This document shows positions 741 to 14,272 of a stretch of 14,272 nt of DNA, piece by piece (position 1 is the stretch's first letter; each line of letters starts with the position of its first letter). Source of the stretch: Bacteroidota bacterium (GTDB lineage: Bacteria; Bacteroidota; Bacteroidia; Bacteroidales; JADFUO01); assembly GCA_015222115.1 (NCBI GenBank), contig JADFUO010000091.1, forward strand, positions 1 through 14,272, written 5' to 3'. The notes beneath the pieces were generated by a model. That model saw only the letters and a list, made by a program, of their open reading frames with translations, was not told where the DNA came from and did not search any database. The translations under genes were made by a program, and so were the position numbers.

Positions 741-2423
741 ATGAACAAATATCATTCAAAAAAAATAAACATTTTAATTAGTATACTGGCAATTATATTC
801 TTTTTGCCATTTGCTGGCTTAAATCAAAATAATTTTGAAATATCAAAAAATTTAGATATTTACACAACACTTTTCAGGGAATTAAATATAAATTATGTTG
901 ATGAAATAAATTCAGGCGAATTAATGGAAGCAGCCATTAATGCAATGCTTGAATCACTTGACCCATATACCATTTATATTCCCGAATCGGAAGTTGAAGA
1001 TTACAGATTCATGACCACAGGCCAATATGGAGGCATAGGTGCTTTGATACATAAACAAGGTGATTATGTGGTTATTTCCGAACCTTATGAAGGCTTTCCT
1101 GCACATAAAGCAGGGCTAAAAGCCGGCGACAGGATTTTGAAAATAAATAATAAATCAGCAAAAGGAAAATCATCGGCTGATGTTAGTAAAGTGTTAAAAG
1201 GATCACCCGGTACTACATTAAAAATTTTAATAGAAAGAAACGGTGAACCAAAACCGATTGAAAAAGAAATTATCAGGGAAAAAATTAAAATTGAAAATAT
1301 ACCGTATTACGGAATGCTGAATGATGATATAGCGTATATTAAATTAACCGGATTTACCCAAAATGCAGCCAGGGAAGTTAAAAATTCATTCCTGAAATTA
1401 AAAGAAAATAATGATGTTAAAAGTTTGATTTTGGATTTAAGGGGGAACGGAGGCGGATTAATGAACGAAGCAGTTGATATAACCAATATATTCGTGGAAA
1501 AAGATAAAGAAGTAGTAAGCACTAAGGGTAAATTATCAAACAGAAACAAATCTCACAAAACCCGTTATGCGCCGGTTGATCTTTCAATTCCGCTTGTTGT
1601 TCTTGTTAACCAGGCAAGCGCATCTGCCTCGGAGATTGTTGCAGGAGCCATACAGGATTTAGACCGCGGAGTAATTTTAGGTCAGCGTACTTTTGGAAAA
1701 GGATTGGTGCAAAATGTTATCCCCTTAAGTTATAATTCAAAAGTTAAGGTTACAGTTGCAAAATATTATATCCCAAGCGGAAGATGCATACAAGCCATTG
1801 ACTATTCTTTAAAAGATGAGAACGGTCATTTTAATAAAATTCCTGATTCATTAATCACTGCTTTCAAAACCCAAAATGGTCGCACGGTTTATGACGGAGG
1901 TGGGATTGAACCGGATATCAAACTCAAACCTCTAAAATTTAGTAATATTGCAATAAGCCTTTTTACAAAGTTCCTGATTTTTGATTATGCAAATAAGTTT
2001 TTCAGGGAAAATCCCGAAATTCCACCGGCAGATGAATTTATAATTACTGATCAGATATTTGATGATTTTAAAAATTATATTTCAGATAAAAATTATGATT
2101 ACACAACTGAAAGTGAAAAAACACTTGAAAAATTAAAAAAGTATGCTGAAAAAGAAAAATATTTTGATGCTATTCAATCGGAATATGAAACCTTAAAAAT
2201 GAAAATGAAGCATGATAAAGACGAAGACCTGAATAAATATAAAGACCAGATTAAGGAATTACTTAAAATTGAAATTGTATCAAGATATTATTATCAAAAA
2301 GGGAAAATTATAGCTTCTATTGCTAATGATCCTGAAATTAAAGAAGCTATGGAAATATTAGAAAATAAAACCTTATATGAATCAATCCTTAATGGAACTT
2401 ATCAAAAAAACGAGGATAATTAA
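741..2423 (+). CDS. S41 family C-terminal processing peptidase (Ctp/Prc type)
   Basis: This 560-residue periplasmic serine protease probably trims or degrades envelope proteins from their C termini. A signal/anchor helix is at residues 9-26 (INILISILAIIFFLPFAG). Next come a CTP N-terminal helical segment (about 35-90, with SLDPYTIYIP), a PDZ domain (about 93-165, with the GYGGIG-like strand at QYGGIGALI and AGLKAGDRILKIN) and the S41 catalytic core (about 190-350). The serine-lysine dyad is visible: S295 in SASASEI and K320 in FGKG, 25 residues apart as in plant and bacterial CtpA. The GNGGG oxyanion-region motif is at about 235-239. A lysine- and glutamate-rich helical C-terminal domain (about 400-560) is typical of the Bacteroidota versions. 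Its stop TAA shares a base with the ATG of the next gene. Family assignment is firm; the substrate is unknown. Confidence 0.93.
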   Translation: MNKYHSKKINILISILAIIFFLPFAGLNQNNFEISKNLDIYTTLFRELNINYVDEINSGELMEAAINAMLESLDPYTIYIPESEVEDYRFMTTGQYGGIGALIHKQGDYVVISEPYEGFPAHKAGLKAGDRILKINNKSAKGKSSADVSKVLKGSPGTTLKILIERNGEPKPIEKEIIREKIKIENIPYYGMLNDDIAYIKLTGFTQNAAREVKNSFLKLKENNDVKSLILDLRGNGGGLMNEAVDITNIFVEKDKEVVSTKGKLSNRNKSHKTRYAPVDLSIPLVVLVNQASASASEIVAGAIQDLDRGVILGQRTFGKGLVQNVIPLSYNSKVKVTVAKYYIPSGRCIQAIDYSLKDENGHFNKIPDSLITAFKTQNGRTVYDGGGIEPDIKLKPLKFSNIAISLFTKFLIFDYANKFFRENPEIPPADEFIITDQIFDDFKNYISDKNYDYTTESEKTLEKLKKYAEKEKYFDAIQSEYETLKMKMKHDKDEDLNKYKDQIKELLKIEIVSRYYYQKGKIIASIANDPEIKEAMEILENKTLYESILNGTYQKNEDN

Positions 2424-4075
2424 TGTACATTTATAAAAGGGAATTTCATTCAACTGCGTATTTTATAGCATTGATTCTTATGGCTATAAGCCTTCCCTTA
2501 TCAAAGTTTACGATGAGTGTTATGCAATTTACTCTTCTTGGACTTTGGTTATGGGCAGGTTTTTCTTTTGAGAAAGCTTTTGATTTCTTCAAAAAAATTA
2601 ATTTTTTTAAAGGGCTTATCAATTTCCTGAATTATGTTATTATTTTAGGATACAATAATATTGTTGATAAGTTCAGGATTTTTTTCAAAAACAAACCCGC
2701 ATTAGTTCTCACATCGCTTTTTTTCCTTCACGTTATTGGATTAATTTACACAAGCGATTTTTCTTATGCATTTAAAGACCTCCGTACTAAATTACCACTC
2801 TTTGCATTTCCGGTTATCTTATCTACAATGGAACCACTCAATAAAAAAAGGTTCAATTGGGTGATGTTGATGTTCGTAGGAGCTGTTTTAATTGGCACTT
2901 TTATTAGCACCCATGTGCTACTGGAACAGGAATTTACAGATATCAGAAAAATTTCAATCTTAATTTCCCCAATAAGATTTAGTTTGAACATAAGCATAGC
3001 AATATTTACTTTAATATATTTTATCTATAAAAAAGAATATTTTAATATTACAACTAAAATTATATTTGGAATAATTGCTGCATGGTTAATTGTTTTCCAG
3101 TTTATTTTAGAATCTGGAATTGGTATAGTTATTTTGTTAACTATCAGTTTTGTATTATTTATTTATCTTGTTTTTAACCTGAAAAAACTTTATCTGAAAA
3201 TCGGAATAATTAGTCTGCTTGTAATAATTCCCATACTTCTTTATACTTATATTAATGATATTGTGAAAGATTACAACAAAGTGCCGGATATTGATTTTAG
3301 TAAGCTTGATAAATTTACTGCACTTGGAAATTATTATGTACATGATACTGTTTTTCTTGGAATTGAAGATGGGAAATATATCGGACTTTATATGTCGAAA
3401 AAAGAATTAAAAGCCGCATGGAACAAAAGAAGCTCGTATGATTATAACGGAAAAGACCAAAACGTACAAGAAATAAAATATACCATTATCAGATTCCTGA
3501 CTTCAAAAGACTATCGGAAAGATGCTGAAGGAGTCAACAAACTGACCGACAAAGAAGTTAAGGCAATTGAACGGGGTATTGCAAATATTAATTATCTTGA
3601 AAGTCCTAATCTAAAAACCCGTGTTTCAAAAATACTGATGGGATACCATAATTTTAAATATGCTTACGACCCTAATGGAAATTCAGTAATGCAGAGGATT
3701 GAATATTGGAAAGCATCAATAAATATTATAAAACAACATTTTCTTTTTGGTGTTGGAACAGGAGATATGAGAGATATTTTTAACGAACAATATGAAAAAA
3801 TGAACTCCATCCTGAAACTTGAAAATCGTTTGCGTTCCCATAATCAATTCATGTCAATATTTATTGCTTTCGGATTATTGGGATTTATGTGGTTTATTTT
3901 TACATTGTTATATCCTCCGATAAAAACACGAAAATTCCTTAATTATTTTTATGCAATCTTTTTCATCACAATTATACTTTCAATGTTTACAGAAGACACC
4001 ATTGAATCGCAAGCCGGTGCTACATTTTTTGCTTTTTTTAATTCTTTTCTGATTTTTTGCCAAAAAAATGAATAA
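2423..4075 (+). CDS. O-antigen ligase / Wzy-C family membrane protein
   Basis: This 550-residue polytopic inner-membrane protein is probably an O-antigen ligase (WaaL-like) or polysaccharide polymerase acting on undecaprenyl-linked glycans at the periplasmic face. Hydrophobic segments appear at about residues 12-45, 65-80, 93-110, 125-135, 146-165, 190-202, 212-228, 231-252, 258-276, then 476-500 and 505-520. A long hydrophilic loop (about 280-470) precedes the Wzy-C signature RIEYWKASINIIKQHFLFG-GTGD (about 425-448). Next is RSHNQF with H473, matching the conserved loop histidine that is functionally important in WaaL. The sequence does not separate ligase from polymerase. The start codon overlaps the protease stop by one base (TAATG), so translation is coupled. 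No glycosyltransferase genes are adjacent, unlike a polysaccharide cluster, which slightly favours a stand-alone ligase. Confidence 0.8.
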   Translation: MYIYKREFHSTAYFIALILMAISLPLSKFTMSVMQFTLLGLWLWAGFSFEKAFDFFKKINFFKGLINFLNYVIILGYNNIVDKFRIFFKNKPALVLTSLFFLHVIGLIYTSDFSYAFKDLRTKLPLFAFPVILSTMEPLNKKRFNWVMLMFVGAVLIGTFISTHVLLEQEFTDIRKISILISPIRFSLNISIAIFTLIYFIYKKEYFNITTKIIFGIIAAWLIVFQFILESGIGIVILLTISFVLFIYLVFNLKKLYLKIGIISLLVIIPILLYTYINDIVKDYNKVPDIDFSKLDKFTALGNYYVHDTVFLGIEDGKYIGLYMSKKELKAAWNKRSSYDYNGKDQNVQEIKYTIIRFLTSKDYRKDAEGVNKLTDKEVKAIERGIANINYLESPNLKTRVSKILMGYHNFKYAYDPNGNSVMQRIEYWKASINIIKQHFLFGVGTGDMRDIFNEQYEKMNSILKLENRLRSHNQFMSIFIAFGLLGFMWFIFTLLYPPIKTRKFLNYFYAIFFITIILSMFTEDTIESQAGATFFAFFNSFLIFCQKNE

Positions 4076-4104
4076 AAAATTACCGTTACTTTTCAGATTT
4101 TCCG

Positions 4105-4112
4105 TATTTTCG
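4105..4112 (+). promoter_or_regulatory. Weak candidate -7 box upstream of cytidine deaminase
   Basis: TATTTTCG matches the Bacteroidota -7 consensus TAnnTTTG at all but one fixed base and lies 20 bases before the ATG at 4133. No clear TTG -33 element is seen at the expected distance. It is offered only because the 57-base gap before cdd is the first non-overlapping junction after the protease/ligase pair. Confidence 0.2.
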
Positions 4113-4132
4113 CTTTTCCCAGATAAAATATT

Positions 4133-4621
4133 ATGAAAAAAATTGACTTAAAAATTTCTTTTGAAGAATACGATTCAATAGAAGAGTTAAATCCTGAAGA
4201 TAAAACCATACTTAATACAGCATGCAAAATGGTCAATACAGCTTATGCTCCATATTCACAGTATTATGTCGGGGCGGCTGTTTTGCTTGAGAATGGCAAA
4301 ATAATAACAGGAAATAATCAGGAAAATGTTGCCTATCCATCAGGTATATGTGCAGAACGTGTTGCCGTGTTTTATGCTTCATCGCAGTATCCTGATGTAA
4401 AAATCAAATCAATAGCGGTTTCAGCAAAGGCAATAAATTTTAAGATAAATCATCCGGTAACACCGTGTGGTGCCTGTCGTCAGGTTTTGGCTGAATATGA
4501 AGACAAACAAAAATCGGAAATCCGTATTATTTTAAAAGGGGATACAGGTAAAATTCGCATTATAAAAAGTGTTAAAGACATATTGCCGATGATATTTCAT
4601 GCAGATGAATTGAAGAAATAA
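4133..4621 (+). CDS. cdd: Cytidine deaminase
   Basis: This zinc enzyme hydrolytically deaminates cytidine and deoxycytidine to uridine and deoxyuridine in pyrimidine salvage. The protein is 162 residues, somewhat longer than the common ~130-residue homotetrameric type because of an N-terminal extension of about 25 residues, a frequent Bacteroidota form. Substrate and zinc motifs are complete: YAPYSQYYVGAAV (about 38-50), G-NQENVAYPSGICAERVA with C73 (zinc) and E75 (proton shuttle), and PCGACRQ with C112 and C115 (zinc). The ATG at 4133 follows an A/T-rich leader without a Shine-Dalgarno sequence. A 12-base gap to the ChaN-family gene suggests the two are co-transcribed, though no functional link between them is evident. 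Confidence 0.95.
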   Translation: MKKIDLKISFEEYDSIEELNPEDKTILNTACKMVNTAYAPYSQYYVGAAVLLENGKIITGNNQENVAYPSGICAERVAVFYASSQYPDVKIKSIAVSAKAINFKINHPVTPCGACRQVLAEYEDKQKSEIRIILKGDTGKIRIIKSVKDILPMIFHADELKK

Positions 4622-4633
4622 ATATATAAAATT

Positions 4634-5500
4634 ATGAAAACAAAAATCTTTCTATTATTATCAATTTTAGCTCTTACAGTAGCGATGAAAAATGACAGAC
4701 CTGCTTACAAATTATTTAATTCGGAAGGAAAACAGGTAAAATATAAAACATTATTAAAGAATGTCTTAGAATCCGATGTTGTGTTTTTCGGTGAAATGCA
4801 CAATAACCCGATTTGTCATTGGCTGCAACTGGAATTGACAAGCGACATTTTTGAAAAGAAAGGGGAATTACTTGTAATGGGTGCAGAAATGTTTGAAACC
4901 GACAATCAGTTAATTCTTGATGAATATCTAAATGAATTAATAAAAACAAAAAATTTTGAAAATGAAGCCAAATTATGGCCCAATTATAAAACGGATTATA
5001 AACCGCTGGTTGAATTTGCCAAAGAAAACAATTTGGATTTTATCGCAACAAATATCCCTCGCAGATATGCAGCCGTTGTTCATAAAAAGGGTTTTGAAGG
5101 ATTGGATAGTTTAAACCAGGAAGCAAAAGTTTTAATTGCACCTCTCCCTGTAAAGTACGACCCTGAACTTAATTGTTATAAAAAAATGTTGAAAATGATG
5201 GGCGGTATGGGGCATGCTAATACCAATCTTCCCAAAGCTCAAGCAATTAAAGATGCAACCATGGCACATTTTATTTTAGAAAACCGGCCGGAAGGGACAT
5301 TGTTTGTTCATTATAACGGGACATATCATTCAAATGATTTTGAGGGAATTGTATGGTACTTGAAACAAGAAAACCCTGATTTGAAAATTCTTACAATTGC
5401 TTCGGTTGAACAAAAAGAAATTGATGAGTTATCCGATGAATATCTGAATATTGCAAATTATGTTCTTGTTATTCCTGAAAATATGACTAAAACATATTAA
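4634..5500 (+). CDS. ChaN-family (haem-binding uptake) protein
   Basis: The 288-residue exported protein belongs to the ChaN/haem-binding uptake family, whose best-studied member binds haem as a dimer at the outer membrane. Family blocks are clear: VVFFGEMHNNPICHWLQLE (about 49-67), MGAEMFETDNQ, LWPNYKTDYKPLVEFAK, IATNIPRRYA, QAIKDATMAHFI, and near the end HYNGTYHSNDFEGIVWYLK. The N terminus is a hydrophobic signal peptide (residues 4-17). No lipobox cysteine follows it, so unlike many relatives annotated as lipoproteins this one should be a soluble periplasmic protein or be anchored by an uncleaved signal. Haem binding is inferred from the family. The TAA stop at 5498-5500 directly abuts the end of the convergent gap gene. 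Confidence 0.85.
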   Translation: MKTKIFLLLSILALTVAMKNDRPAYKLFNSEGKQVKYKTLLKNVLESDVVFFGEMHNNPICHWLQLELTSDIFEKKGELLVMGAEMFETDNQLILDEYLNELIKTKNFENEAKLWPNYKTDYKPLVEFAKENNLDFIATNIPRRYAAVVHKKGFEGLDSLNQEAKVLIAPLPVKYDPELNCYKKMLKMMGGMGHANTNLPKAQAIKDATMAHFILENRPEGTLFVHYNGTYHSNDFEGIVWYLKQENPDLKILTIASVEQKEIDELSDEYLNIANYVLVIPENMTKTY

Positions 5501-6514
5501 TTATACAAACTTCTCAATCAATTCAACCAAACGGGCGGCATAGCCCATTTCATTATCATACCATGCAATAATTTTAACTAATTTATTTTTCTCGCCTAAA
5601 ACTGCTGTTAATCCTGCATCAAAAACAGCGGAATGTGTGTTGCCGATAATATCAATTGAAACGATTGGGTCTTCGGTGTATTGCAAAATTCCTTTTAGTC
5701 TGCCTTCAGCAGCTTCTTTAAAAGCAGCATTAATTTCTTTAATGCTGGTAGGTTTTTTCAGAGTGCATGTAAGGTCGGTTAAAGAAGCGTTTGGGACAGG
5801 AACGCGTATGCCGGCACCACCGAGTTTTCTTCTTAAATGCGGAAAAATCCTTGTGGCTGCTTTAGCAGCACCTGTGGTTGTCGGAACAATTGAATATGCT
5901 GCTGCACGTCCCCTTCGTAAATCAATGTGCGGAGCATCTAATAAATTCTGGTCTTTGGTATATGAATGAACCGTTGTGATGAACCCTTTTTCAACTCCCC
6001 ATAATTCATCCAATATCATTATCAAAGGAGCTACGTTATTTGTGGTACAGGATGAGTTGGAAATTATCACATCATTTTTATCAATTATATCATCATTCAC
6101 ACCTAAAACCACATATTTAACTCCATTACTTTGTCCTTTTGCAGGCGCCGAGATAATAACCTTTTTCGCTCCTGCCTCTTCAACATGTTTTATTGCTTTG
6201 CTTTTGGTTACAAATTTTCCTGTTGACTCAATTACTACATCTATATCCAAATCTTTCCAAGGCAAGTATGAAGGATTCTTTTCAGAAAGCACGTTAATTG
6301 TTTTCCCGTTTACAATCAGCTTATTTTTTTCAAATTTAACTTCCCCGTCAAATTGACCATGAATTGAATCATATTTTAATAAATGTGCGAGGGTCTTCGG
6401 GTTGGTAAGATCATTAACGGCAATTAATTCCATTTTATCATTCTTTATTAATTGCCTGAAAGTTATTCTGCCTATTCTTCCGAAACCATTAATTGCTACT
6501 CTTATCTTTGACAT
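5501..6514 (-). CDS. gap: Type I glyceraldehyde-3-phosphate dehydrogenase
   Basis: This is the cytoplasmic glycolytic enzyme converting glyceraldehyde 3-phosphate, NAD+ and phosphate to 1,3-bisphosphoglycerate, and the reverse in gluconeogenesis. Length is 337 residues, as expected. The Rossmann motif INGFGRIGR is at 8-16 and NDLTN at 34-38; D35 favours NAD over NADP. The catalytic region is SNSSCTTNN with C156, and the activating histidine is H183 in TVHSYTKDQNLLDAPH. RRGRAAAYSIVPTTTGAA and WYDNEMGYAARL complete the C-terminal signatures. The second cysteine of the classic SCTTNC motif is N160; this does not affect the catalytic cysteine. The gene is monocistronic, is transcribed toward the ChaN gene with no intergenic base, and has a good promoter box upstream. 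Confidence 0.97.
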   Translation of the reverse strand: MSKIRVAINGFGRIGRITFRQLIKNDKMELIAVNDLTNPKTLAHLLKYDSIHGQFDGEVKFEKNKLIVNGKTINVLSEKNPSYLPWKDLDIDVVIESTGKFVTKSKAIKHVEEAGAKKVIISAPAKGQSNGVKYVVLGVNDDIIDKNDVIISNSSCTTNNVAPLIMILDELWGVEKGFITTVHSYTKDQNLLDAPHIDLRRGRAAAYSIVPTTTGAAKAATRIFPHLRRKLGGAGIRVPVPNASLTDLTCTLKKPTSIKEINAAFKEAAEGRLKGILQYTEDPIVSIDIIGNTHSAVFDAGLTAVLGEKNKLVKIIAWYDNEMGYAARLVELIEKFV

Positions 6515-6544
6515 AATAAAATAATGTTATAATTTTTGAATGCA

Positions 6545-6552
6545 CAAAATTA
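6545..6552 (-). promoter_or_regulatory. Candidate -7 box of gap
   Basis: Read on the minus strand this is TAATTTTG, a full match to the Bacteroidota -7 consensus TAnnTTTG, about 30 bases before the gap ATG. That would give a short leader. A TTG element at the -33 position is not obvious. Confidence 0.4.
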
Positions 6553-6635
6553 TAATATTTAACTAATCATACGGCTTAATGATAAGAATTTTTGAAAATA
6601 TATTTTGGAAAATCAACAATTTGTCCATGATTTTA

Positions 6636-6788
6636 TTATAATAATTCAGGTTTATCGTATTCAATTTCTTTAAGGTGAAAATTTACATAGTTATGATCAC
6701 TTTCCTTTAATTTCCAAGTTCCTTTAATGACTGTGGGTATAACTATACCATTGATTTCTTTGTAGTCAAAGAATATAATAAAACGCAT
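6636..6788 (-). pseudogene. Possible 3' remnant of a truncated gene (50 codons)
   Basis: A minus-strand frame encodes 50 residues from ATG at 6788 to TAA at 6636. The sequence, including FFDYKEINGIVIPT, GTWKL and YVNFHLKEIEYD, looks like the last beta-strands of a secreted or lipoprotein-carrier-like fold. I am reminded of the C termini of DUF6544/DUF6920-type proteins ('Y-E-NG--IP ... W ... Y ... I--I-Y'), but this is recollection of a pattern, not a match. Upstream the frame reaches a stop only eight codons before the ATG, exactly where the DNA turns GC-rich. The simplest reading is a gene whose 5' part was lost at that junction. It could instead be a genuine small protein; it has no evident signal peptide. 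Confidence 0.35.
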
Positions 6789-6996
6789 GGGGCTTTCTAC
6801 TGGTTCGGGACCTTACCTTTGCTATTAAGGGGCTTTTACCTCCAAGTGGATGAGCCATGCCGGGCGTAAATCAGAACGGACTGGCAGTAAAAAGAGCTAA
6901 CCGGCCTGGTATTATACGTATTAATATTTCCCAAGTAACGTTTGTTGTTTAAACTTCAGTGGATCGTTAAGCTGAAGGCTGAATCACAAATGTTAC
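6784..6996. other. GC-rich element of unknown nature (candidate ncRNA or small mobile element)
   Basis: This block stands out in composition from both flanks and carries no reading frame of convincing length: all frames are broken by stops within about 30 codons. It includes a repeated octamer GGGGCTTT (6789-6796 and 6829-6836), complementary segments GCATGG (6785-6790) and CCATGC (6855-6860), and at its right end the 62-nt hairpin. It is not a tRNA, tmRNA or RNase P RNA by any motif I can recognise. Its left edge coincides with the truncation point of the minus-strand ORF, consistent with insertion or a recombination junction. Confidence 0.4.
6935..6996. repeat. 62-nt imperfect hairpin
   Basis: GTAACGTTTGT (6935-6945) pairs with ACAAATGTTAC (6986-6996), 11 pairs including one G-U. 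GTTTA (6947-6951) then pairs with TGAAT (6980-6984), and CTTCAGT (6954-6960) with GCTGAAG (6971-6977), leaving a 10-nt loop. That makes 23 pairs with one single and one double mismatch. No T-run follows on either strand, so it is not an intrinsic terminator. Candidate explanations are a folded RNA, a transposon or REP-like end, or an attC-like recombination hairpin. Confidence 0.7.
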
Positions 6997-7025
6997 CGTT
7001 GCTTTTATTTTGAATCACTTTTGTA

Positions 7026-7033
7026 TATTTTTG
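7026..7033 (+). promoter_or_regulatory. Candidate -7 box for the M20 peptidase gene
   Basis: TATTTTTG fits TAnnTTTG fully and lies about 110 bases before the ATG at 7143. A TTG at 6999-7001 is slightly too far upstream for an ideal -33 element. A/T-rich DNA yields such boxes by chance, so this is tentative. Confidence 0.3.
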
Positions 7034-7117
7034 AAAAAATCCAATTTCTGGATAAAAAATAAGAATAAAAAAAATTTCTTCCCAGTATCTAATATTTTTT
7101 AATTTTACCAATTGAAA

Positions 7118-7137
7118 ATCTAAATCTAAAATCTAAA
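7118..7137. repeat. Short tandem repeat (ATCTAAA)3
   Basis: ATCTAA, ATCTAAA and ATCTAAA follow one another immediately before the M20 peptidase start codon. A change in copy number by slippage would alter the leader length directly upstream of the ATG. No Shine-Dalgarno sequence is present here. Confidence 0.6.
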
Positions 7138-7142
7138 ATTAT

Positions 7143-8513
7143 ATGGAACAAATAAAAAATTACATTGAAGAAAACAAAGAACGTTTTTTAGATGAATTGT
7201 TTGATTTAATTAAAATTCCTTCAATCAGTTCAGAAACGAAGCACAAAGATGATATGTTAAAAACTGCAGAGTTATGGAAAGATACAATTTTAAAAGCCGG
7301 TGCCGATAAAGCAGAAGTTATGCCCACAGAGGGAAACCCTGTGGTTTACGGTGAAAAAATGATTGATCCGGATGCTCCGACGGTTTTGGTTTACGGTCAT
7401 TATGATGTGATGCCTGTTGACCCCTTAGAACTATGGAAATCACCTCCTTTTGAACCGGAAATCAGGGATGGAAAAATCTATGCACGTGGCGCAGACGATG
7501 ACAAAGGACAGGCATTTATGCATGCTAAAGCATTTGAATTAATGGTAAAAACAAATACTTTACCTTGTAATGTTAAATTTATGATTGAGGGCGAAGAAGA
7601 AATCGGTTCTGTAAGCCTTGCAAAATTTTGCAAAGACAATAAAGAACTATTAAAAGCTGATATAATTTTAGTTTCTGATACAAGTATGATAGCACAAGAC
7701 ATACCATCAATCACAACAGGTTTGCGGGGTTTAAGTTATATGGAAGTTGAAGTTACAGGACCTAACAAAGACCTGCATTCGGGAATTTTCGGCGGTGCCG
7801 TTGCTAATCCGATAAATATACTTACAAAAATGATAGCCCAACTTACAGATGAAAACAACCAAATTACAATACCCGGTTTTTATGACGATATTGATATTGT
7901 CAGCAATGAAGAAAGAGCTGAAATGGCAAAAGCCCCCTTTAACTTAGAAAAATACAAAAAAGCATTGGATATTGATGTAGTCTGGGGCGAAAAAGGATAT
8001 TCAACTAACGAACGTACAGGTATTCGCCCATCACTTGATGTAAATGGTATTTGGGGCGGTTATACAGGCGAAGGTGCAAAGACCGTTATTCCTTCAAAAG
8101 CTTACGCAAAAATTTCTATGCGATTAGTTCCACATCAGGACCATGAGAAAATAAACAAATTATTTGAAGATTATTTTAAAGCTATTGCCCCTTCTTGTGT
8201 AAAAGTTAAAGTAAAAGCATTACATGGCGGTCAATCCTACGTTTCACCAACTGATATGCTAGCATATAAAGCCGCAGATATGGCTTATACAAAAGCTTAT
8301 GGTAAAAAACCTGTTCCTGTTAGAAGCGGGGGAAGTATTCCAATTATTTCGGCTTTTGAAGAAATTCTCGGTATCAAATCAATTCTAATGGGCTTCGGAC
8401 TGGAATCGGATGCAATTCATTCACCTAATGAAAATTATCCGTTATTCAATTTCTATAAAGGAATTGAAACTATTCCGTATTTCTATAAATATTTTACCGA
8501 ATTGATGAAATAG
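7143..8513 (+). CDS. M20 family metallopeptidase (dipeptidase)
   Basis: This 456-residue cytoplasmic di-zinc aminoacyl peptidase probably hydrolyses dipeptides or N-acyl amino acids. All active-site motifs of the M20 clan are visible: YGHYDVMP with H86 (metal) and D88; YARGADDDKG with bridging D119; IEGEEEIGS with E151 (general base) and E152 (metal); VSDT with D179; and DLHSG with H212 in the dimerisation/lid domain (about 195-360). The metal-binding His near the C terminus is in the AIHSPNENY block. Length and order fit the CNDP/PepV-like dipeptidase branch ('M20/M25/M40 dipeptidase'). There is no signal peptide. It appears to be monocistronic, bounded by non-coding repeats on both sides. 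The exact substrate cannot be read from the sequence. Confidence 0.92.
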   Translation: MEQIKNYIEENKERFLDELFDLIKIPSISSETKHKDDMLKTAELWKDTILKAGADKAEVMPTEGNPVVYGEKMIDPDAPTVLVYGHYDVMPVDPLELWKSPPFEPEIRDGKIYARGADDDKGQAFMHAKAFELMVKTNTLPCNVKFMIEGEEEIGSVSLAKFCKDNKELLKADIILVSDTSMIAQDIPSITTGLRGLSYMEVEVTGPNKDLHSGIFGGAVANPINILTKMIAQLTDENNQITIPGFYDDIDIVSNEERAEMAKAPFNLEKYKKALDIDVVWGEKGYSTNERTGIRPSLDVNGIWGGYTGEGAKTVIPSKAYAKISMRLVPHQDHEKINKLFEDYFKAIAPSCVKVKVKALHGGQSYVSPTDMLAYKAADMAYTKAYGKKPVPVRSGGSIPIISAFEEILGIKSILMGFGLESDAIHSPNENYPLFNFYKGIETIPYFYKYFTELMK

Positions 8514-8754: not shown

Positions 8755-9069
8755 ATGAATCTTTCAGAACCACAAAACAAAGACATCAGTAAACCTCCTG
8801 ATTACTGGCGCAAACCGCTTGATATTGAAAAATACAAAATCCCCCATGGAACAGTTCATATTATAATAGAGCGGTGCAAGGGATGTGAATTTTGTATAGA
8901 ATTCTGCCCTCAAAAAGTATTTGAAGTATCAGACGAATTCAACAGTAAGGGTTATCATCCTCCTAAAATAGTTTGTCATGATAAATGTGTTAATTGTAAA
9001 TTGTGCGAACTCATCTGCCCTGAATTTGCCATCTATATAACAGAAGATGAACCCATGAATATAATTTAA
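8755..9069 (+). CDS. korD: 2-oxoacid:ferredoxin oxidoreductase delta subunit (2x[4Fe-4S] ferredoxin)
   Basis: This 104-residue ferredoxin-like subunit carries electrons from the catalytic KorAB core. Two CxxCxxCxxxCP motifs are present: C41-C44-C47-C51 (CKGCEFCIEFCP) and C78-C81-C84-C88 (CVNCKLCELICP), plus an extra C74. The N-terminal 35 residues have no cysteines and include a DYWRKPLDIEKY segment that I regard as typical of KorD/VorD subunits. It is first in the operon, 12 bases before korA. The 241 bases upstream are non-coding and should hold the operon promoter, but no convincing -7/-33 pair was found there. Confidence 0.88.
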   Translation: MNLSEPQNKDISKPPDYWRKPLDIEKYKIPHGTVHIIIERCKGCEFCIEFCPQKVFEVSDEFNSKGYHPPKIVCHDKCVNCKLCELICPEFAIYITEDEPMNII

Positions 9070-9081
9070 AGAGGAATAAAA

Positions 9082-10236
9082 ATGAGAAATATAAAACCGG
9101 CAGTCTTAACCGGCGAACACTTTATGAATGGCGACTATGCATGTGCAGAAGGAGCTTTAGCATGCGGATGTCGCTTTTTTGCTGGATATCCCATAACTCC
9201 AGCCACTGAGATTTCTGAAAAAATGTCCAGGCGAATGCCCGAAGTCGGAGGTATTTTTATTCAAATGGAAGATGAAATGGCTTCAATGAATGCTATTTTA
9301 GGTGCCTCATGGGCGGGAGTTAAATCCATGACCGCAACATCAGGACCTGGCTTCAGCTTAATGATGGAAAATTTTGGTTTGGGAATTATGATGGAAGTAC
9401 CTTGTGTTTTGGTAAATATTCAGCGGGGAGGACCCAGCACAGGTTTGCCTACATTAGTTGGTCAGCAGGATATGATGCAGGCAAGATGGGGTTCACACGG
9501 TGATTACGAAGTCATCGCATTAACTCCCAGCTCTCCTCAGGAAATGTTTGATTTCACAATTAAAGCATTTAATCTTTCGGAAAAATATCGTCTGCCCGTT
9601 TTATTGATGTCTGATGAAATAGTAGGTCACATGACGGAAAAAATAGTTATACCTAAAGAAAAAGACATTAAAATCGTTAACAGAAAAAAACCGGAAAAAT
9701 ATACCGATAAATACTTAATGTATAAAGCCGATAAAGACCTTGTACCTCCGATGGCTAATGCTGGAGAGGGTTATAAGGTCATTACTACCGGATTAACTCA
9801 TGATGAAAAGGGCTATCCTGCTATGAATGCCGAAGCCCAGGAAAAACTTATTAAACGACTCTGTGATAAAATTCTGAAAAATAAAGCTGATATTATTGAA
9901 ACACAAGAACGGGAAACAGAAGATGCTGAAATAATTGTAGTTGCTTATGGCTCTCCTGCCAGATCAGCTTTAAGTGCAGTTAAATTAGCCAGAAAAGAAG
10001 GAATAAAAGCAGGACTATTACGACTGATTACCGTTTGGCCCTTCCCAGATGAGAAAATACTTGAAGTTGCTAATAAAGCAAAAACAATCATTGTACCGGA
10101 GATAAACAGAGGGCAAATAGTTCGTGAAGTTGAACGCTGTTCCCATGATAAGTGCCATGTAATATCTTTACCAAAACTTGGAGATATCCATACACCATAC
10201 GAAATATTAAAAGTTATAAAGGAGGTTAACAAATGA
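9082..10236 (+). CDS. korA: 2-oxoacid:ferredoxin oxidoreductase alpha subunit
   Basis: This is the large subunit (384 residues) of a probable 2-oxoglutarate:ferredoxin oxidoreductase, which oxidatively decarboxylates a 2-oxoacid to its acyl-CoA and reduces ferredoxin. It holds the pyrimidine-binding domain (about 14-200), with GYPITPATEI, QMEDEMASMN, TATSGPGFSLMMEN and QRGGPSTGLPT. Domain II follows (about 280-384), with VVAYGSPARSA and GLLRLITVWPFP. The QRGGPSTGLPT form is the KorA/VorA type rather than the single-chain PFOR type. A Shine-Dalgarno-like AGAGGAA precedes the ATG. The stop overlaps the korB start by 4 bases (ATGA). 2-Oxoglutarate as substrate is inferred from similarity to KorA and from D-A-B-C gene order; a branched-chain 2-oxoacid (Vor) is the main alternative. 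Confidence 0.9.
   Translation: MRNIKPAVLTGEHFMNGDYACAEGALACGCRFFAGYPITPATEISEKMSRRMPEVGGIFIQMEDEMASMNAILGASWAGVKSMTATSGPGFSLMMENFGLGIMMEVPCVLVNIQRGGPSTGLPTLVGQQDMMQARWGSHGDYEVIALTPSSPQEMFDFTIKAFNLSEKYRLPVLLMSDEIVGHMTEKIVIPKEKDIKIVNRKKPEKYTDKYLMYKADKDLVPPMANAGEGYKVITTGLTHDEKGYPAMNAEAQEKLIKRLCDKILKNKADIIETQERETEDAEIIVVAYGSPARSALSAVKLARKEGIKAGLLRLITVWPFPDEKILEVANKAKTIIVPEINRGQIVREVERCSHDKCHVISLPKLGDIHTPYEILKVIKEVNK
10218..10226 (+). promoter_or_regulatory. Strong Shine-Dalgarno of korB
   Basis: AAAGGAGGT, near-perfect complementarity to the 16S rRNA tail, sits 6 bases before the korB ATG at 10233 and inside the end of korA. It fixes this ATG rather than the second one two codons downstream. It is unusual beside the mostly leader-poor genes in this window. 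Confidence 0.7.
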
Positions 10237-11069
10237 GCATGAATGAAATTCATCCGATGGATAAGCTCATCAGGGCTGATCGTATGCCACACATCTGGTG
10301 TTCGGGTTGTGGCTTAGGTACTAATTTTACATGTTATCTTACAGCAATGGAAAAATCCGGTCTTGACCTTGATAAATGTGTTATTGTATCTGGAATTGGC
10401 TGTACCGGCAGGATTCCCGGCTATACCAATATTGACTCTTTTCATACTACTCATGGCAGGGCAATTCCCTTTGCTTTAGGATTAAAACTTGCTAATCCCG
10501 AATTAACAGTTACTGTGTTCAGTGGCGATGGAGACCTGTTTGCTATCGGCGGTAATCACTTTATCCATGCTGCCCGACGAAATGTTGATATCAATATAAT
10601 CTGTGTAAATAACTTTAACTATGGAATGACCGGAGGTCAATTTGGTCCAACAACACCACTTGATGCCATAACAACAACTTCACCTTATGGTAACTATGAA
10701 CACCCTTTTAATCTTGTTGATTTGGCTGCTGCCAGTGGAGCTGTTTATGTTGCAAGATGGACCAGCATACATGTTCGCCGTTTAACCAAATCCATTCAGG
10801 AAGCCTTGCTTAAAAAGGGTTTCACTTTTATTGAAATAATTTCTCCATGCCCAACTAATTACGGACGAAGAAATAAATTAGGTGATGGATTGGATGAAAT
10901 GAAATATTACAGAGAGCATAGCATAATTAAACATGGGATTAATCCTAAAGAAGCGGATCTGAGTTTTAATGGAGAAATAGTAGTTGGTAAATTTGTTGAT
11001 ATAGATAAACCCACATTTCTTGATAACCAGCCTGATATGTCACAAATGTCAGTCAATAATAAAAAATAA
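10233..11069 (+). CDS. korB: 2-oxoacid:ferredoxin oxidoreductase beta subunit
   Basis: This is the thiamine-pyrophosphate-binding subunit (278 residues) that pairs with KorA. Visible are WCSGCGLG with C23 and C26, GIGCTGR with C57 and SPCPTNYGRR with C206. Together these give the four ligands of the core [4Fe-4S] cluster. The TPP/Mg motif GDGDLFAIGG is at about 98-107, followed by NNFNYGMTGGQFGPTTP. HTTHGRAIPFALG is the usual block for the interface with TPP. The gene is translationally coupled to korA through an ATGA overlap and a strong Shine-Dalgarno. The family match is clear; substrate specificity is shared with the korA call. Confidence 0.92.
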   Translation: MSMNEIHPMDKLIRADRMPHIWCSGCGLGTNFTCYLTAMEKSGLDLDKCVIVSGIGCTGRIPGYTNIDSFHTTHGRAIPFALGLKLANPELTVTVFSGDGDLFAIGGNHFIHAARRNVDINIICVNNFNYGMTGGQFGPTTPLDAITTTSPYGNYEHPFNLVDLAAASGAVYVARWTSIHVRRLTKSIQEALLKKGFTFIEIISPCPTNYGRRNKLGDGLDEMKYYREHSIIKHGINPKEADLSFNGEIVVGKFVDIDKPTFLDNQPDMSQMSVNNKK

Positions 11070-11073
11070 TAAA

Positions 11074-11628
11074 ATGAAACATATTGAAATAAAAATAGGC
11101 GGGTTCGGTGGACAAGGCATTGTTTTGTCCGGTTTTATTATGGGTAAAGCAGCATCAATTTATGATAAAAAGAATGCTACTTTAACCCAAAGCTATGGCC
11201 CTGAATCCAGAGGTGGAGCCTGTAGTGCACAGCTTATAGTTTCCGAAGAAGAAGTAGATTACCCTGAAGTACAAAAACCTGAAATATTAATGGTAATATC
11301 TCAGGAAGCTTATGAAAAGTTTACTCCATGCTTAATTAAAGGAGGAATACTTCTTTATGATGAAGATTTAGTCAATTCTGTAAACAATCTGCCAAAAAAA
11401 ACCAGGATATATTCAATTCCTGCAACCAGGTTTGCTGAAGAATTAGGCAGAAAAATTGTGACTAATATTATTATGCTTGGCTTTTTTACTGCAATTACAA
11501 GTGTGATCAGTTATGAATCTATGAAAAAGTCGGTACTCTCAAGTATTCCGGCAGGAACAGAAGAACTAAACCTTAAAGCTTTTCAAAAAGGTTATGAATT
11601 TGGTCTTGAAAAAGTTAAGGGTATGTAA
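11074..11628 (+). CDS. korC: 2-oxoacid:ferredoxin oxidoreductase gamma subunit
   Basis: This gamma subunit (184 residues) of the Kor/Vor complex covers the CoA-side domain that is fused into one chain in PFOR. Family blocks are IKIGGFGGQGIVLSG at the very N terminus, TQSYGPESRGGACSAQLIVS and VDYPEVQKPEILMVISQEAYEKF. The frame is open from 11020, inside korB. The start is placed at ATG 11074 because the conserved IEIKIGGFGGQG block begins directly after it and it lies 4 bases beyond the korB stop. It is followed after 12 bases by the HdrC-GltD fusion gene, with no terminator, so co-transcription is likely. Confidence 0.9.
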   Translation: MKHIEIKIGGFGGQGIVLSGFIMGKAASIYDKKNATLTQSYGPESRGGACSAQLIVSEEEVDYPEVQKPEILMVISQEAYEKFTPCLIKGGILLYDEDLVNSVNNLPKKTRIYSIPATRFAEELGRKIVTNIIMLGFFTAITSVISYESMKKSVLSSIPAGTEELNLKAFQKGYEFGLEKVKGM

Positions 11629-11640
11629 TAAAATAAAATA

Positions 11641-13056
11641 ATGGAAAATCCTGAATCTAAACATAAAATTGAAATCACTGACTCACTTGAGGAGGTGATC
11701 AAGCAAGCATTTTATTGTCTGGAATGTGGAAGATGTACAGGAACCTGCCCTATGGTAGAATTGTTCCCTGAACATTTTAACCCGCGCCATATTTTAGAAA
11801 ATGTACTTATCAATCTTGATAAGGTCATTAATGAAAAGGGAATATGGTTTTGTGCTTCATGCTATAAATGTAATAGATTATGCCCCCAGGGTATTGAACT
11901 ACCGGATATTTTCCTGAGACTAAGAAAAATCGCTGTAAAGGAAAACGGACTTGAAAAATTAAAACAAGCCATTGAAATAATAAAGGAAAAAGTACCTTTC
12001 TCTGCCAGTTTTATTGAGGTTTGTTTTCATCACGAAAGAATACCGCTTGACCAGACAATAGTCGACAATATATTTAAAAAAATTCATGTTAAGAAAAAAA
12101 CCGCAAAACAACCTGAATTAAAGGAAAAGATAGCAGTTATTGGCTCAGGTCCTGCCGGATTGGTTGTTGCTCACGACCTCAGACAAAAAGGATATCAGCT
12201 TACCGTATTTGAATCACAACCATTCGCAGGGGGCATGCTCAGGGAATGTATTCCTGAATATCGCCTGCCTACCAAGATAATTGAAACTGATATTAATAAT
12301 CTGAAAGAGCAGGGTATAGAGTTCAAAACCAATACAACAATCGGAAAGGACTTAACTTTTAATCAGCTTTTTGAAGATGGATTTGAAGCTATCTTTGTTG
12401 CATCAGGTGCACACCAAAGCATAAATCTAAATATAGAAGGCAAAAATCTGTCAGGAGTAGTTAGTATGTTAAAATTTATGGGAGATTTAAAAAAGGAGAA
12501 GAACAAAAAACCAGGTAATAAAATTGTTGTGATTGGTGGAGGTAATACAGCTATGGATGTTGCTTCAACTGCTGTCATGTTTGGTTCAAAAGAGGTTACA
12601 TTATTATATCGCCGTTCCAGAGAGCAAATGCCTGCTGATAAAAACGAAATCAGGGAAGCAGAAGATGATGGAGTAAAAATCATATATTTAGCAGCTCCTA
12701 AAAGATTTTTAGGGGAAAAGAAAATCAATAAAATAGAATGTTATAAATTACAATTAGCCGAAGTTGATTATAGTGGAAGAAAACGTCCTGTTCCCATCAA
12801 AGATTCTGAATTTATTATTGAAGCCGACCAGGTGATTATTGCAATTGGTGAAAGACCAAGCATTAGCTTTTTACCTGAAGAAATTGAAATAAATTCAGAT
12901 GGTGCCATTATAGTTGACCCTAACACTATGGAAACAAGTTTACCCGGAGTATTTGCCGGAGGGGATGTTGTTCATGATTCAGCTACAGTAGCTGAAGCCA
13001 TTGTATCAGCAAAAAATGCTGTAATTGGAATTGATAATTATTTAAAATCAAAATGA
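11641..13056 (+). CDS. HdrC-like [4Fe-4S] domain fused to GltD/NfnB-like FAD-NAD(P)H oxidoreductase
   Basis: This 471-residue two-part redox protein starts with residues 20-100, a heterodisulfide-reductase-C-like ferredoxin with C26-C29-C32-C36 and C71-C74-C77-C81 (CLECGRCTGTCP; CASCYKCNRLCP). The GIELPDIFLRLRK tail after the second cluster is as in HdrC. Residues 163-471 are a glutamate-synthase-small-subunit-like flavoprotein. They show a dinucleotide fold (IAVIGSGPAGL, 164-174), ECIPEYRLP, a second one (IVVIGGGNTAMDVA), RRSREQMPA (typical of NADPH-binding GltD/NfnB) and the FAD-closing GVFAGGD (436-442). GltD proteins normally carry a different N-terminal cluster domain, so the HdrC-type head is the notable point. 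It probably passes electrons between NAD(P)H and the neighbouring HdrA/Kor proteins. Its stop overlaps the HdrA gene by 4 bases. It is not a glutamate synthase subunit by context. Confidence 0.85.
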   Translation: MENPESKHKIEITDSLEEVIKQAFYCLECGRCTGTCPMVELFPEHFNPRHILENVLINLDKVINEKGIWFCASCYKCNRLCPQGIELPDIFLRLRKIAVKENGLEKLKQAIEIIKEKVPFSASFIEVCFHHERIPLDQTIVDNIFKKIHVKKKTAKQPELKEKIAVIGSGPAGLVVAHDLRQKGYQLTVFESQPFAGGMLRECIPEYRLPTKIIETDINNLKEQGIEFKTNTTIGKDLTFNQLFEDGFEAIFVASGAHQSINLNIEGKNLSGVVSMLKFMGDLKKEKNKKPGNKIVVIGGGNTAMDVASTAVMFGSKEVTLLYRRSREQMPADKNEIREAEDDGVKIIYLAAPKRFLGEKKINKIECYKLQLAEVDYSGRKRPVPIKDSEFIIEADQVIIAIGERPSISFLPEEIEINSDGAIIVDPNTMETSLPGVFAGGDVVHDSATVAEAIVSAKNAVIGIDNYLKSK

Positions 13057-14272
13057 ATACAGAAACAAAAGAAATCAGAATTGGAGTATATGTCTGCCAT
13101 TGTGGACTAAATATTGCCGGTTCGGTTGACTGTGTAGAAGTTACAAAGTTTGCTTCCACATTACCCGATGTAGTGATTGCCAGCGATAACAAATACACAT
13201 GTTCAGACCCGGGACAAGAAATTATCAAACAGGATATTAAAGAACATAAGTTAACCCGCGTAGTAGTTGCTTCATGTACTCCACGATTGCATGAGCCAAC
13301 TTTCAGAAATGCATGCGCCGAAGCCGGCTTAAATCCTTACCTGTTTGAAATGGCTAATATCAGGGACCAATGTAGCTGGGTTCATTTATATGATAAAAAA
13401 AATGCAACCGAAAAAGCCAAAGACCTCGTTAAAATGGCTGTGGCAAAAGCCAGACTGCTTCAACCGCAAACCGAAACCGAAGTCCCGATAACACAAACCG
13501 CTTTAATTATCGGAGGAGGAGTTGCAGGAATACAAGCTGCACTTGACCTTGCAGACCAGGATTATAAGGTTTACCTCGTTGAAAAACGTCCCAGCATAGG
13601 CGGAATAATGGCTCAAATTGATAAGACGTTCCCAACAATGGATTGCTCAATTTGTATCCTTGCTCCCAAAATGAGTGAAGCCGGCAGACATCCCAATATT
13701 ACATTATTAACAAATAGCGAAGTTGCTGAAGTAAGCGGATATGTCGGTAATTTTAAAATAAAAGTCCTAAAAAAAGCCAGGTATGTTAAAGAAAAAGAAT
13801 GTACTGCCTGCGGCGATTGTGTTGAAGTTTGCCCGGTTACCAGACCTAACGAATTTGATATTGGCTTAGCCACAAGAAAAGCTATTTATACACCTTTTGC
13901 ACAAGCAGTACCTTCTGCTTATATTATTAATATGGATGATTGTATGGGTGATGTACCTGTTGCCTGTGGAAAATGCGTGGAAAAATGCGATAAAAATGCT
14001 ATTGACTTTGATATGCATGACGAAATCCTTGAACTGGATATCGGCACTGTAATAGTTGCAACAGGAGTTGATGTTTACGACCCGACAGGCATTACAGAAT
14101 ACGGCTATCGCAGATATGAAAATGTTATTACCAGCATGGAGTTTGAGAGGCTTATTAATGCCGGCGGACCAAGTGGCGGGCATCTAATCAGACCTTATGA
14201 CAAAGAAATTCCTAAAACCGTTGCATTTATCCAATGTGTTGGCTCACGAAACGAAAAGAAAGGAAATAATTA
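13053..14272 (+). CDS. hdrA: HdrA-like heterodisulfide reductase flavoprotein (3' truncated by window)
   Basis: The frame begins at ATG 13053 (4-base overlap with the upstream stop) and stays open to the window edge: 406 full codons, no stop. It matches HdrA. The N-terminal cysteine domain has VCHCGLNIAG (C15, C17), C50 in YTCSDPGQ, VVVASCTPRLHEP (C75) and NIRDQCSWVH (C107). The FAD fold is LIIGGGVAGIQAALDL (151-166), with TMDCSICILAPKM (C198, C201). Next is a [4Fe-4S] site C250-C253-C256-C260 (CTACGDCVEVCP) and a second set C297, C305, C308, C312 with a wider first gap. HdrA is the flavin-bifurcating subunit of heterodisulfide reductase in methanogens, and homologues serve Qmo, Flox and related complexes in bacteria. 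Here its role with Kor and the HdrC-GltD fusion is inferred from the operon. The C-terminal part lies outside the window. Confidence 0.9.
   Translation, partial: MNTETKEIRIGVYVCHCGLNIAGSVDCVEVTKFASTLPDVVIASDNKYTCSDPGQEIIKQDIKEHKLTRVVVASCTPRLHEPTFRNACAEAGLNPYLFEMANIRDQCSWVHLYDKKNATEKAKDLVKMAVAKARLLQPQTETEVPITQTALIIGGGVAGIQAALDLADQDYKVYLVEKRPSIGGIMAQIDKTFPTMDCSICILAPKMSEAGRHPNITLLTNSEVAEVSGYVGNFKIKVLKKARYVKEKECTACGDCVEVCPVTRPNEFDIGLATRKAIYTPFAQAVPSAYIINMDDCMGDVPVACGKCVEKCDKNAIDFDMHDEILELDIGTVIVATGVDVYDPTGITEYGYRRYENVITSMEFERLINAGGPSGGHLIRPYDKEIPKTVAFIQCVGSRNEKKGNN

Follow-up and report, generated by a model that had tools for sequence, protein, structure and literature searches.

In methanogens, electrons enter HdrA, a protein of the heterodisulfide reductase (Hdr) family, through MvhD, which is the route of hydrogenase or formate dehydrogenase, and they reach HdrB through HdrC. 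Genes of this family are also on record among those of a 2-oxoacid:ferredoxin oxidoreductase (KOR): in tubeworm symbionts and in Thioflavicoccus mobilis, korABCD is interspersed with hdrA and hdrBC and accompanied by flx, and a direct electron-bifurcating Kor-Hdr complex was proposed there (PMC6315080, PMC11636981). The locus analyzed here lies in a stretch of 14,272 nucleotides from a Bacteroidota bacterium (contig JADFUO010000091.1), hereafter the window, which is the entire contig; its source genome (2.3 Mb, 534 contigs) is rated 83% complete. The final 5.5 kb of the window is occupied by six genes, all on the plus strand, which encode a KOR, a protein that joins an HdrC-like domain to a GltD-like domain for flavin adenine dinucleotide (FAD) and NAD(P)H, and the N-terminal part of an HdrA:

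8755..9069, plus strand: korD, delta subunit of a 2-oxoacid (2-oxoglutarate-type):ferredoxin oxidoreductase with two [4Fe-4S] motifs; Fer4_7, 41.7 bits
9082..10236, plus strand: korA, alpha subunit; POR_N, 247 bits, and PFOR_II, 75.6 bits
10233..11069, plus strand: korB, beta subunit, thiamine diphosphate binding; TPP_enzyme_C, 117 bits
11074..11628, plus strand: korC (ATG start at 11074), gamma subunit; POR, 122.7 bits
11641..13056, plus strand: HdrC-like/GltD-like fusion gene, with an HdrC-like two-cluster domain at about residues 18-110 and a GltD/Nfn-large-subunit-type FAD and NAD(P)H domain at about residues 160-471
13053..14272, plus strand: hdrA, N-terminal 406 codons, probably of the HdrA2 (HdrA-MvhD) type; NF040770, 680 bits; the contig end cuts the gene

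We propose a coupling of KorDABC to a bifurcating core built on HdrA-MvhD, with the HdrC-like/GltD-like NAD(P)H flavoprotein substituting for HdrBC, and we regard this reading as evenly poised between acceptance and doubt. Functional coupling of the KOR to the Hdr/NAD(P)H module is very probable, and the assembly of all six products into one direct complex is favored with less assurance; bifurcation, as opposed to simple passage of electrons along the chain, is tentative and falls somewhat short of an even chance.

The six genes are separated by 4 to 12 bases or, at two junctions, overlap by 4 bases, and there is no terminator-like site between korC and the fusion gene. A first-pass annotation, made from the sequence alone, had described six tightly packed genes consisting of a complete korDABC, an HdrC-GltD fusion, and HdrA; the coordinates, spacing, and domain matches agree with it, and all four subunit types of a KOR are matched by Pfam domains, namely, alpha (POR_N and PFOR_II), beta (TPP), gamma (POR), and delta (two [4Fe-4S]). 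Against NCBIfam, KorA exceeds the cutoff of the general 2-oxoacid model NF006412 (583 bits versus 411), KorC falls slightly below that of NF006323 (228.5 bits versus 235), and the best model for KorD, OGOR_delta, is matched below its cutoff (74.5 bits versus 125). The closest solved structure to KorB is the beta subunit of a 2-oxoglutarate ferredoxin oxidoreductase (8ys5_C, 220 bits).

Relatives of the operon were read in other bacteria. A complete copy, L048 (genome G017, positions 978-7646), has the same order, korD-korA-korB-korC-fusion-hdrA, and 3 bases past hdrA lies a gene on the opposite strand. The contig of L135 (G782) starts inside korC and continues with the fusion gene, hdrA, and a similar opposite-strand neighbor; this neighbor therefore marks the operon end in both loci, and neither copy of it gave a Pfam match at E <= 1e-6. 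In L047 (G002, same genus as the window) and L132 (G055, another family), kor genes are followed by the fusion gene, and contig ends cut both loci. The fusion gene thus follows kor genes in 5/5 bacterial loci read (the window, L047, L132, L048, and L135). We note that the korABC-fusion stretch of L132 (contig C82) is close to that of the window (95% identity for the fusion protein, 97% for KorA), in a genome from a different family of the same taxonomic order; this could reflect either a recent transfer or a mis-binned contig.

These relatives also reveal what the window has lost. The hdrA genes of L048 and L135 encode HdrA-MvhD fusions of 801 and 800 amino acids, respectively. The window HdrA is 84% identical to that of L048 over 406 aligned residues, and since the copy is partial, it aligns with positions 1-393 of the 777 in the NF040770 profile at 680 bits versus a cutoff of 1100; the complete proteins of L048 and of the archaeal locus L140 exceed this HdrA2 cutoff (1300.9 and 1291.8 bits, respectively). 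The L048 protein matches methanogen HdrA (5odc_A) at 865 bits, aligned from 8 to 657, and its C-terminal end matches MvhD (5odc_D) at 162 bits and FlpD at 168.6 bits; the L135 protein matches the same MvhD region at 335 bits. Judged from these relatives, the part of the window hdrA lost at the contig end would include an MvhD domain fused to HdrA. A GltD insert of the kind found in Type III HdrA is absent from both the window HdrA (profile 1-393) and the L048 HdrA (5odc_A 8-657). In an alignment of 18 complete HdrA rows (9 loci plus 9 picked from 120 listed homologues), 35 of the 36 cysteines of L048 are invariant and the 36th is present in 17/18 rows, and the window protein holds all 18 L048 cysteines that fall in its covered part. 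The lysine matching Lys409 of 5odc_A, which hydrogen-bonds the bifurcating FAD (PMC6405883), is kept in 18/18 rows.

The remainder of the window hdrA was not found in searches of the other contigs of its own genome. Contig C376 was considered as the C-terminal half and rejected, since it encodes a different protein that adjoins qmoC. The neighbor of this qmoC (L046, genome G000, C376 positions 911-3277; NF038018, 412 bits versus a cutoff of 300) is presumably qmoB, of which the C-terminal part is present and resembles HdrA/MvhD. Such genes are familiar from sulfate reducers, and we did not expect them in Bacteroidales. Further HdrA-like genes of the window's genome are located on contigs C360, C103, C354, and C421, and its matches to NF040770 total 20, many of them short.

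The first-pass annotation had seen no HdrB in the window, and its absence extends to every relative readable to the operon end. Proteins with the PF02754 (CCG) domain occur in G017 and G782 solely on contigs other than that of the module, placing HdrB outside the module. A single CCG protein, a 272-amino-acid frame with two CCG stretches, is encoded in the window's genome (83% complete); it lies on a different contig, where none of the listed frames matches Hdr or Kor. A CCG pattern search in the archaeal loci L136 to L142 gave no match, with a pattern that recovers only 5/8 PF02754 CCG loci. In the modules readable at both ends (L048, L136, L138, and L140), neither flxABCD nor a gene for the NfnA/S small subunit was seen among the six genes, as judged by reading the genes without a hidden Markov model search. 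The earlier suggestion to look past position 14272 for hdrB, MvhD, or other redox partners can be addressed through relatives: in the complete bacterial copies, an MvhD domain is there, fused to HdrA, and hdrB is not.

In the fusion protein, eight cysteines (26, 29, 32, 36, 71, 74, 77, and 81) are invariant in the 22 rows of alignment A1, as is Cys128, and the HdrC-like domain matches the methanogen HdrABC-MvhAGD structure 5odc at 54.6 bits. Cys128 and the equally invariant His130 form a Val-Cys-x-His motif that resembles what would remain of the VCxHPCExxC cluster motif of 9bov_A after loss of its later cysteines. Arg208 is likewise the same in all 22 rows, and its counterpart in 4ylf_B is position 187; Arg187 of Thermotoga maritima NfnB/L is given as the arginine on N5 of the bifurcating FAD (b-FAD) (PMC6405883). 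The fusion protein therefore has what defines an Nfn-type large subunit, a GltD-type FAD/NADPH domain with the b-FAD arginine, and we note that Arg208 alone is no proof of bifurcation; nonbifurcating GltD proteins may share it. The structure predicted for the fusion protein (predicted local distance difference test score of 85.2, predicted template modeling score of 0.85) retrieved Nfn large subunits and GltD as top-ranked fold matches, covering 362 to 389 of 471 residues. Because the predicted fold matches these proteins, the HdrC-like clusters should be located where Nfn and GltD hold theirs, near the GltD flavin. HdrC chains are missing from the fold-search matches, which is uninformative on this domain, because HdrC was recognized by sequence.

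Our proposal starts from the gene set and how closely it is packed, from its recurrence in both bacteria and archaea, from the conserved flavin and cysteine residues of complete relatives, and from the lack of HdrB in the completely read bacterial copies. In the electron route that we infer, 2-oxoglutarate and coenzyme A (CoA) would be oxidized at the thiamine center of KorAB, and electrons would exit via the KorB and KorD clusters to the MvhD domain, their point of entry into HdrA, with the KOR placed where hydrogenase stands in methanogen HdrABC-MvhAGD. From the HdrA FAD, one electron would reach the GltD FAD and then NAD(P)+ by way of the HdrC-like clusters, and the other would move through the inserted ferredoxin domain to ferredoxin, a possible third carrier; passage of HdrA electrons to ferredoxin via this domain has been described (PMC12054007). 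The reverse run, from succinyl-CoA and CO2 to 2-oxoglutarate, would also be possible. A bolder version, which we consider unlikely, is a bifurcating 2-oxoglutarate synthase common to anaerobic Bacteroidota and archaea in which two flavins would be of the bifurcation type, that of HdrA and a second, Nfn-type FAD carried by the HdrC/GltD protein. This enzyme would let electrons pass between ferredoxin, NAD(P)H, and the 2-oxoglutarate/succinyl-CoA pair, and a pyridine nucleotide would stand in for the disulfide typical of Hdr systems.

A simpler use of similar parts is known from phenylglyoxylate:NAD oxidoreductase, an enzyme of the 2-oxoacid:ferredoxin oxidoreductase type paired with a GltD-like flavoprotein. 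By analogy, the locus could encode an NAD(P)+-reducing 2-oxoglutarate oxidoreductase that passes all electrons to NAD(P)H without bifurcation, HdrA being a mere cluster and flavin relay. The genes encode only two obvious two-electron sites, those of the KOR and GltD, the modules read contain no additional oxidoreductase gene, and by commonly quoted potentials the drop from the KOR to NAD(P)H suffices without a third carrier. We nevertheless consider this explanation unlikely, since the bifurcation lysine is retained in the complete HdrA relatives along with the inserted ferredoxin and MvhD domains, none of which such a wire would need, and the GltD part retains the Nfn flavin arginine.

The same gene set occurs in archaea. 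Among 300 genomes from the phylum of G785 (Candidatus Bathyarchaeota), the fusion protein, called at E <= 1e-110, is present in seven. Loci L136, L138, L139, and L140 contain all six genes in the order fusion-hdrA/mvhD-korD-korA-korB-korC, and L137 keeps this order until the contig ends inside korB; kor genes follow hdrA in 5/7 archaeal loci. Compared to the bacteria, the kor and hdr halves are swapped in order, and the gene set is retained. The first-pass annotation had read the kor and Hdr genes as one redox unit, with further redox genes sought downstream. The conserved gene set, with the two halves paired in 5/5 bacterial and 5/7 archaeal loci, supports the view that the kor genes and the Hdr module belong together; the downstream gene of L048 and L135, on the opposite strand and with no Pfam match at E <= 1e-6, gave no support for redox partners there.

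Neighboring genes bear on the direction of electron flow. Genes of the 5-oxoprolinase type adjoin L136, L137, and L138. A diaminopentanoate-dehydrogenase-like gene lies beside L138 and L140 (in L138, below the cutoff of its model); L139 begins near a contig end, and its flanking genes are uninformative. A citrate synthase gene lies beside L048. The archaeal and L048 surroundings fit 2-oxoglutarate/glutamate, and the 5-oxoprolinase-type neighbors, present beside 3/5 archaeal modules, suggest glutamate breakdown rather than carbon fixation. They count against an arrangement in which NAD(P)H would be the middle-potential donor and the KOR, carboxylating succinyl-CoA reductively, the low-potential acceptor, with a high-potential acceptor protein coded elsewhere docking on the MvhD domain. 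This direction would be the thermodynamically useful one for reductive carboxylation, and it comes near the role proposed for kor-hdr-flx of tubeworm symbionts (PMC6315080, PMC11636981). However, a third oxidoreductase gene is absent from the modules read, and the sole CCG protein of the window's genome is on that other contig lacking listed Hdr and Kor matches; we consider the arrangement very improbable.

Each of the five archaeal genomes with kor genes in the module holds a second KorA, 49 to 53% identical to that of the window; the KorA of the archaeal modules is 62 to 65% identical to it. In the KorA tree, the second copies form a single clade (100/100) apart from the module rows. Because these five genomes hold a second, divergent KorA, the module appears to have its own KOR, a separate enzyme that seems reserved for the Hdr module. 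The window's genome also holds another, two-subunit KorAB (L005). No Hdr match lies in the stretches read around the second copies L162, L163, and L164, and L161 ends just past korC. Another of these divergent archaeal KORs, L160 (G934, contig C59), adjoins an HdrA-MvhD gene (FlpD, 144 bits) and a frame resembling polyferredoxin; this arrangement would amount to another type of Kor-Hdr pairing. The KorA trees recovered no single origin of the module: bacterial module rows are separated from archaeal ones by rows of unknown context, and L150, a long row, is placed among the latter.

Wider co-occurrence was assessed in a protein database that reports the longest contig per match and no neighborhoods, where equal size is evidence of the same contig and no proof of adjacency. 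We compared the best 120 of 2022 fusion matches, the best 120 of 2143 KorA matches, and the best 120 of 6829 HdrA matches, from which absences are uninformative. For 18/120 listed fusion matches (one of them G017), the longest-contig size is identical to the base to that of a KorA match, versus 0.87 on average and at most 4 in 200 shifted controls. Coincidences between fusion and HdrA matches number 15/120 (control mean, 0.52), those between KorA and HdrA number 7 among the listed matches (control, 0.5), and all three genes coincide in 5 cases. For two proteins named Ancylomarina euxinus, fusion P0012 and KorA P0197, the longest contig has the same size, 402,415 bases, and this species seems to be a cultured carrier of the fusion protein and KorA. 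Strains of A. euxinus are in culture, and an Hdr system was reported for Black Sea isolates and read as sulfur oxidation (PMC11129491); that system may or may not involve the present genes.

The fusion protein is rare, being found in 4/393 genomes of a sample of the order, in 3/99 relatives of G017, and in 1/395 genomes of a phylum sample, the window's own. KorA matches (E <= 1e-100) in the 393 genomes of the order number 6, of which 4 are from module genomes. In G157, korA and korB lie beside sucC- and sucD-type genes and the contig ends just past korB, while G050 is cut inside korC; both tell nothing of genes past kor because their contigs end there. G782 gives no close KorA, since its contig starts inside korC. 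A contig-wide scan for neighborhoods (80 of 493 loci listed) was set aside, as it retrieved GltD relatives and large HdrA-GltD proteins with at most 43% identity in the best segment. HdrC-like and GltD parts occurred in one frame in none of the 80 listed loci, and KorA and KorB matches above 60 bits occurred in only one (L093), about 4 kb from its GltD protein.

Several points weigh against a bifurcating Kor-Hdr assembly at this locus. A promoter-like site ends immediately 5' of the fusion gene at 11641, and the window hdrA ends before the bifurcation lysine. The substrate may be 2-oxoglutarate, to judge from the best solved relative of the beta subunit, a 2-oxoglutarate enzyme; this is not certain because the 2-oxoglutarate-specific Kor models match below their cutoffs and, among Kor models, only the general NF006412 is exceeded. 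A KOR can reduce ferredoxin by itself, and with the standard potentials concerned (about -490, -320, and -400 to -500 mV), the gain from splitting KOR electrons between ferredoxin and NAD(P)H would be small. No Kor-Hdr fusion protein (more than 30 bits for both) was found among 360 homologous proteins. Finally, in the archaeal loci L141 and L142, the fusion gene and hdrA/mvhD are followed by a gene for a polyferredoxin of about 320 amino acids, with no kor genes adjoining, and the flavoprotein core can therefore stand apart from the KOR.

The polyferredoxin in the place of the KOR, the missing Kor-Hdr fusion protein, and the location of kor on opposite sides of hdr in bacteria and archaea would all be in line with two soluble partners that form no complex, a KOR that reduces free ferredoxin and a separate ferredoxin:NAD(P)+ oxidoreductase, composed of HdrA-MvhD and the HdrC/GltD protein, that would recycle this ferredoxin. 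However, kor genes accompany the core in all five bacterial loci and in five of the seven archaeal loci read, and the module KOR is a paralogue of its own in five archaeal genomes, whereas a ferredoxin pool would need no dedicated KOR. We consider two independent partners quite improbable.

The idea of a bifurcating Kor-Hdr complex is itself already published; new here is the lack of HdrB and Flx genes, with an NAD(P)H flavoprotein instead. Searches of openly licensed PubMed Central papers retrieved no account of a kor operon that combines an HdrC/GltD protein with HdrA-MvhD and lacks HdrB. Hdr-type bifurcation is usually described with HdrB reducing a disulfide, and an HdrC branch that ends on an NAD(P)H flavoprotein would extend the family, while a 2-oxoacid oxidoreductase as the donor would bring it to the center of the tricarboxylic acid cycle. 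If true, our proposal would show how some anaerobes connect glutamate or 2-oxoglutarate with NADPH and ferredoxin, and the published Kor-Hdr complex idea becomes testable because a cultured carrier, A. euxinus, seems to exist.

Among described systems, several share parts of this arrangement. BzdV is a GltD-like protein, and to our knowledge the korAB-bzdV system includes no HdrA or MvhD. In that system, from the benzoyl-CoA pathway, KOR genes are named together with a further electron transfer gene, as here (PMC5736913). Methanogen HdrABC-MvhAGD (5odc) resembles the module in HdrA, MvhD, and the HdrC-like domain, and here there is no HdrB and no hydrogenase. In comparison with NfnAB, Stn, and NfnABC (4ylf, 8oh5, 9n5u, and 9bov), no small-subunit gene is seen here, the two-cluster domain is HdrC-like, and the partner is HdrA. 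HdrA2B2C2 of Methanosarcina acetivorans has an HdrA-MvhD fusion like that of the module, in which L048 and L140 exceed the HdrA2 cutoff; HdrA2 acts with HdrB2C2 on the heterodisulfide (PMC5296606), whereas the present module has no HdrB and its HdrC-like domain is continuous with a GltD-like one. Type III HdrA and HdrA9-11 of anaerobic methanotrophic archaea (ANME) likewise pair HdrA with a GltD/NfnB module that handles NAD(P)H; GltD is inserted in HdrA there, while here it is separate, joined to the HdrC-like domain, and adjoined by kor genes (PMC12054007, PMC9012536). The kor-hdr-flx systems share with this locus kor genes placed among hdr genes and the idea of a direct complex; in those systems, flxABCD gives NADH coupling and hdrB is present, whereas the complete copies here have neither, and the HdrC-like/GltD-like protein would provide the NAD(P)H coupling (PMC6315080, PMC11636981).

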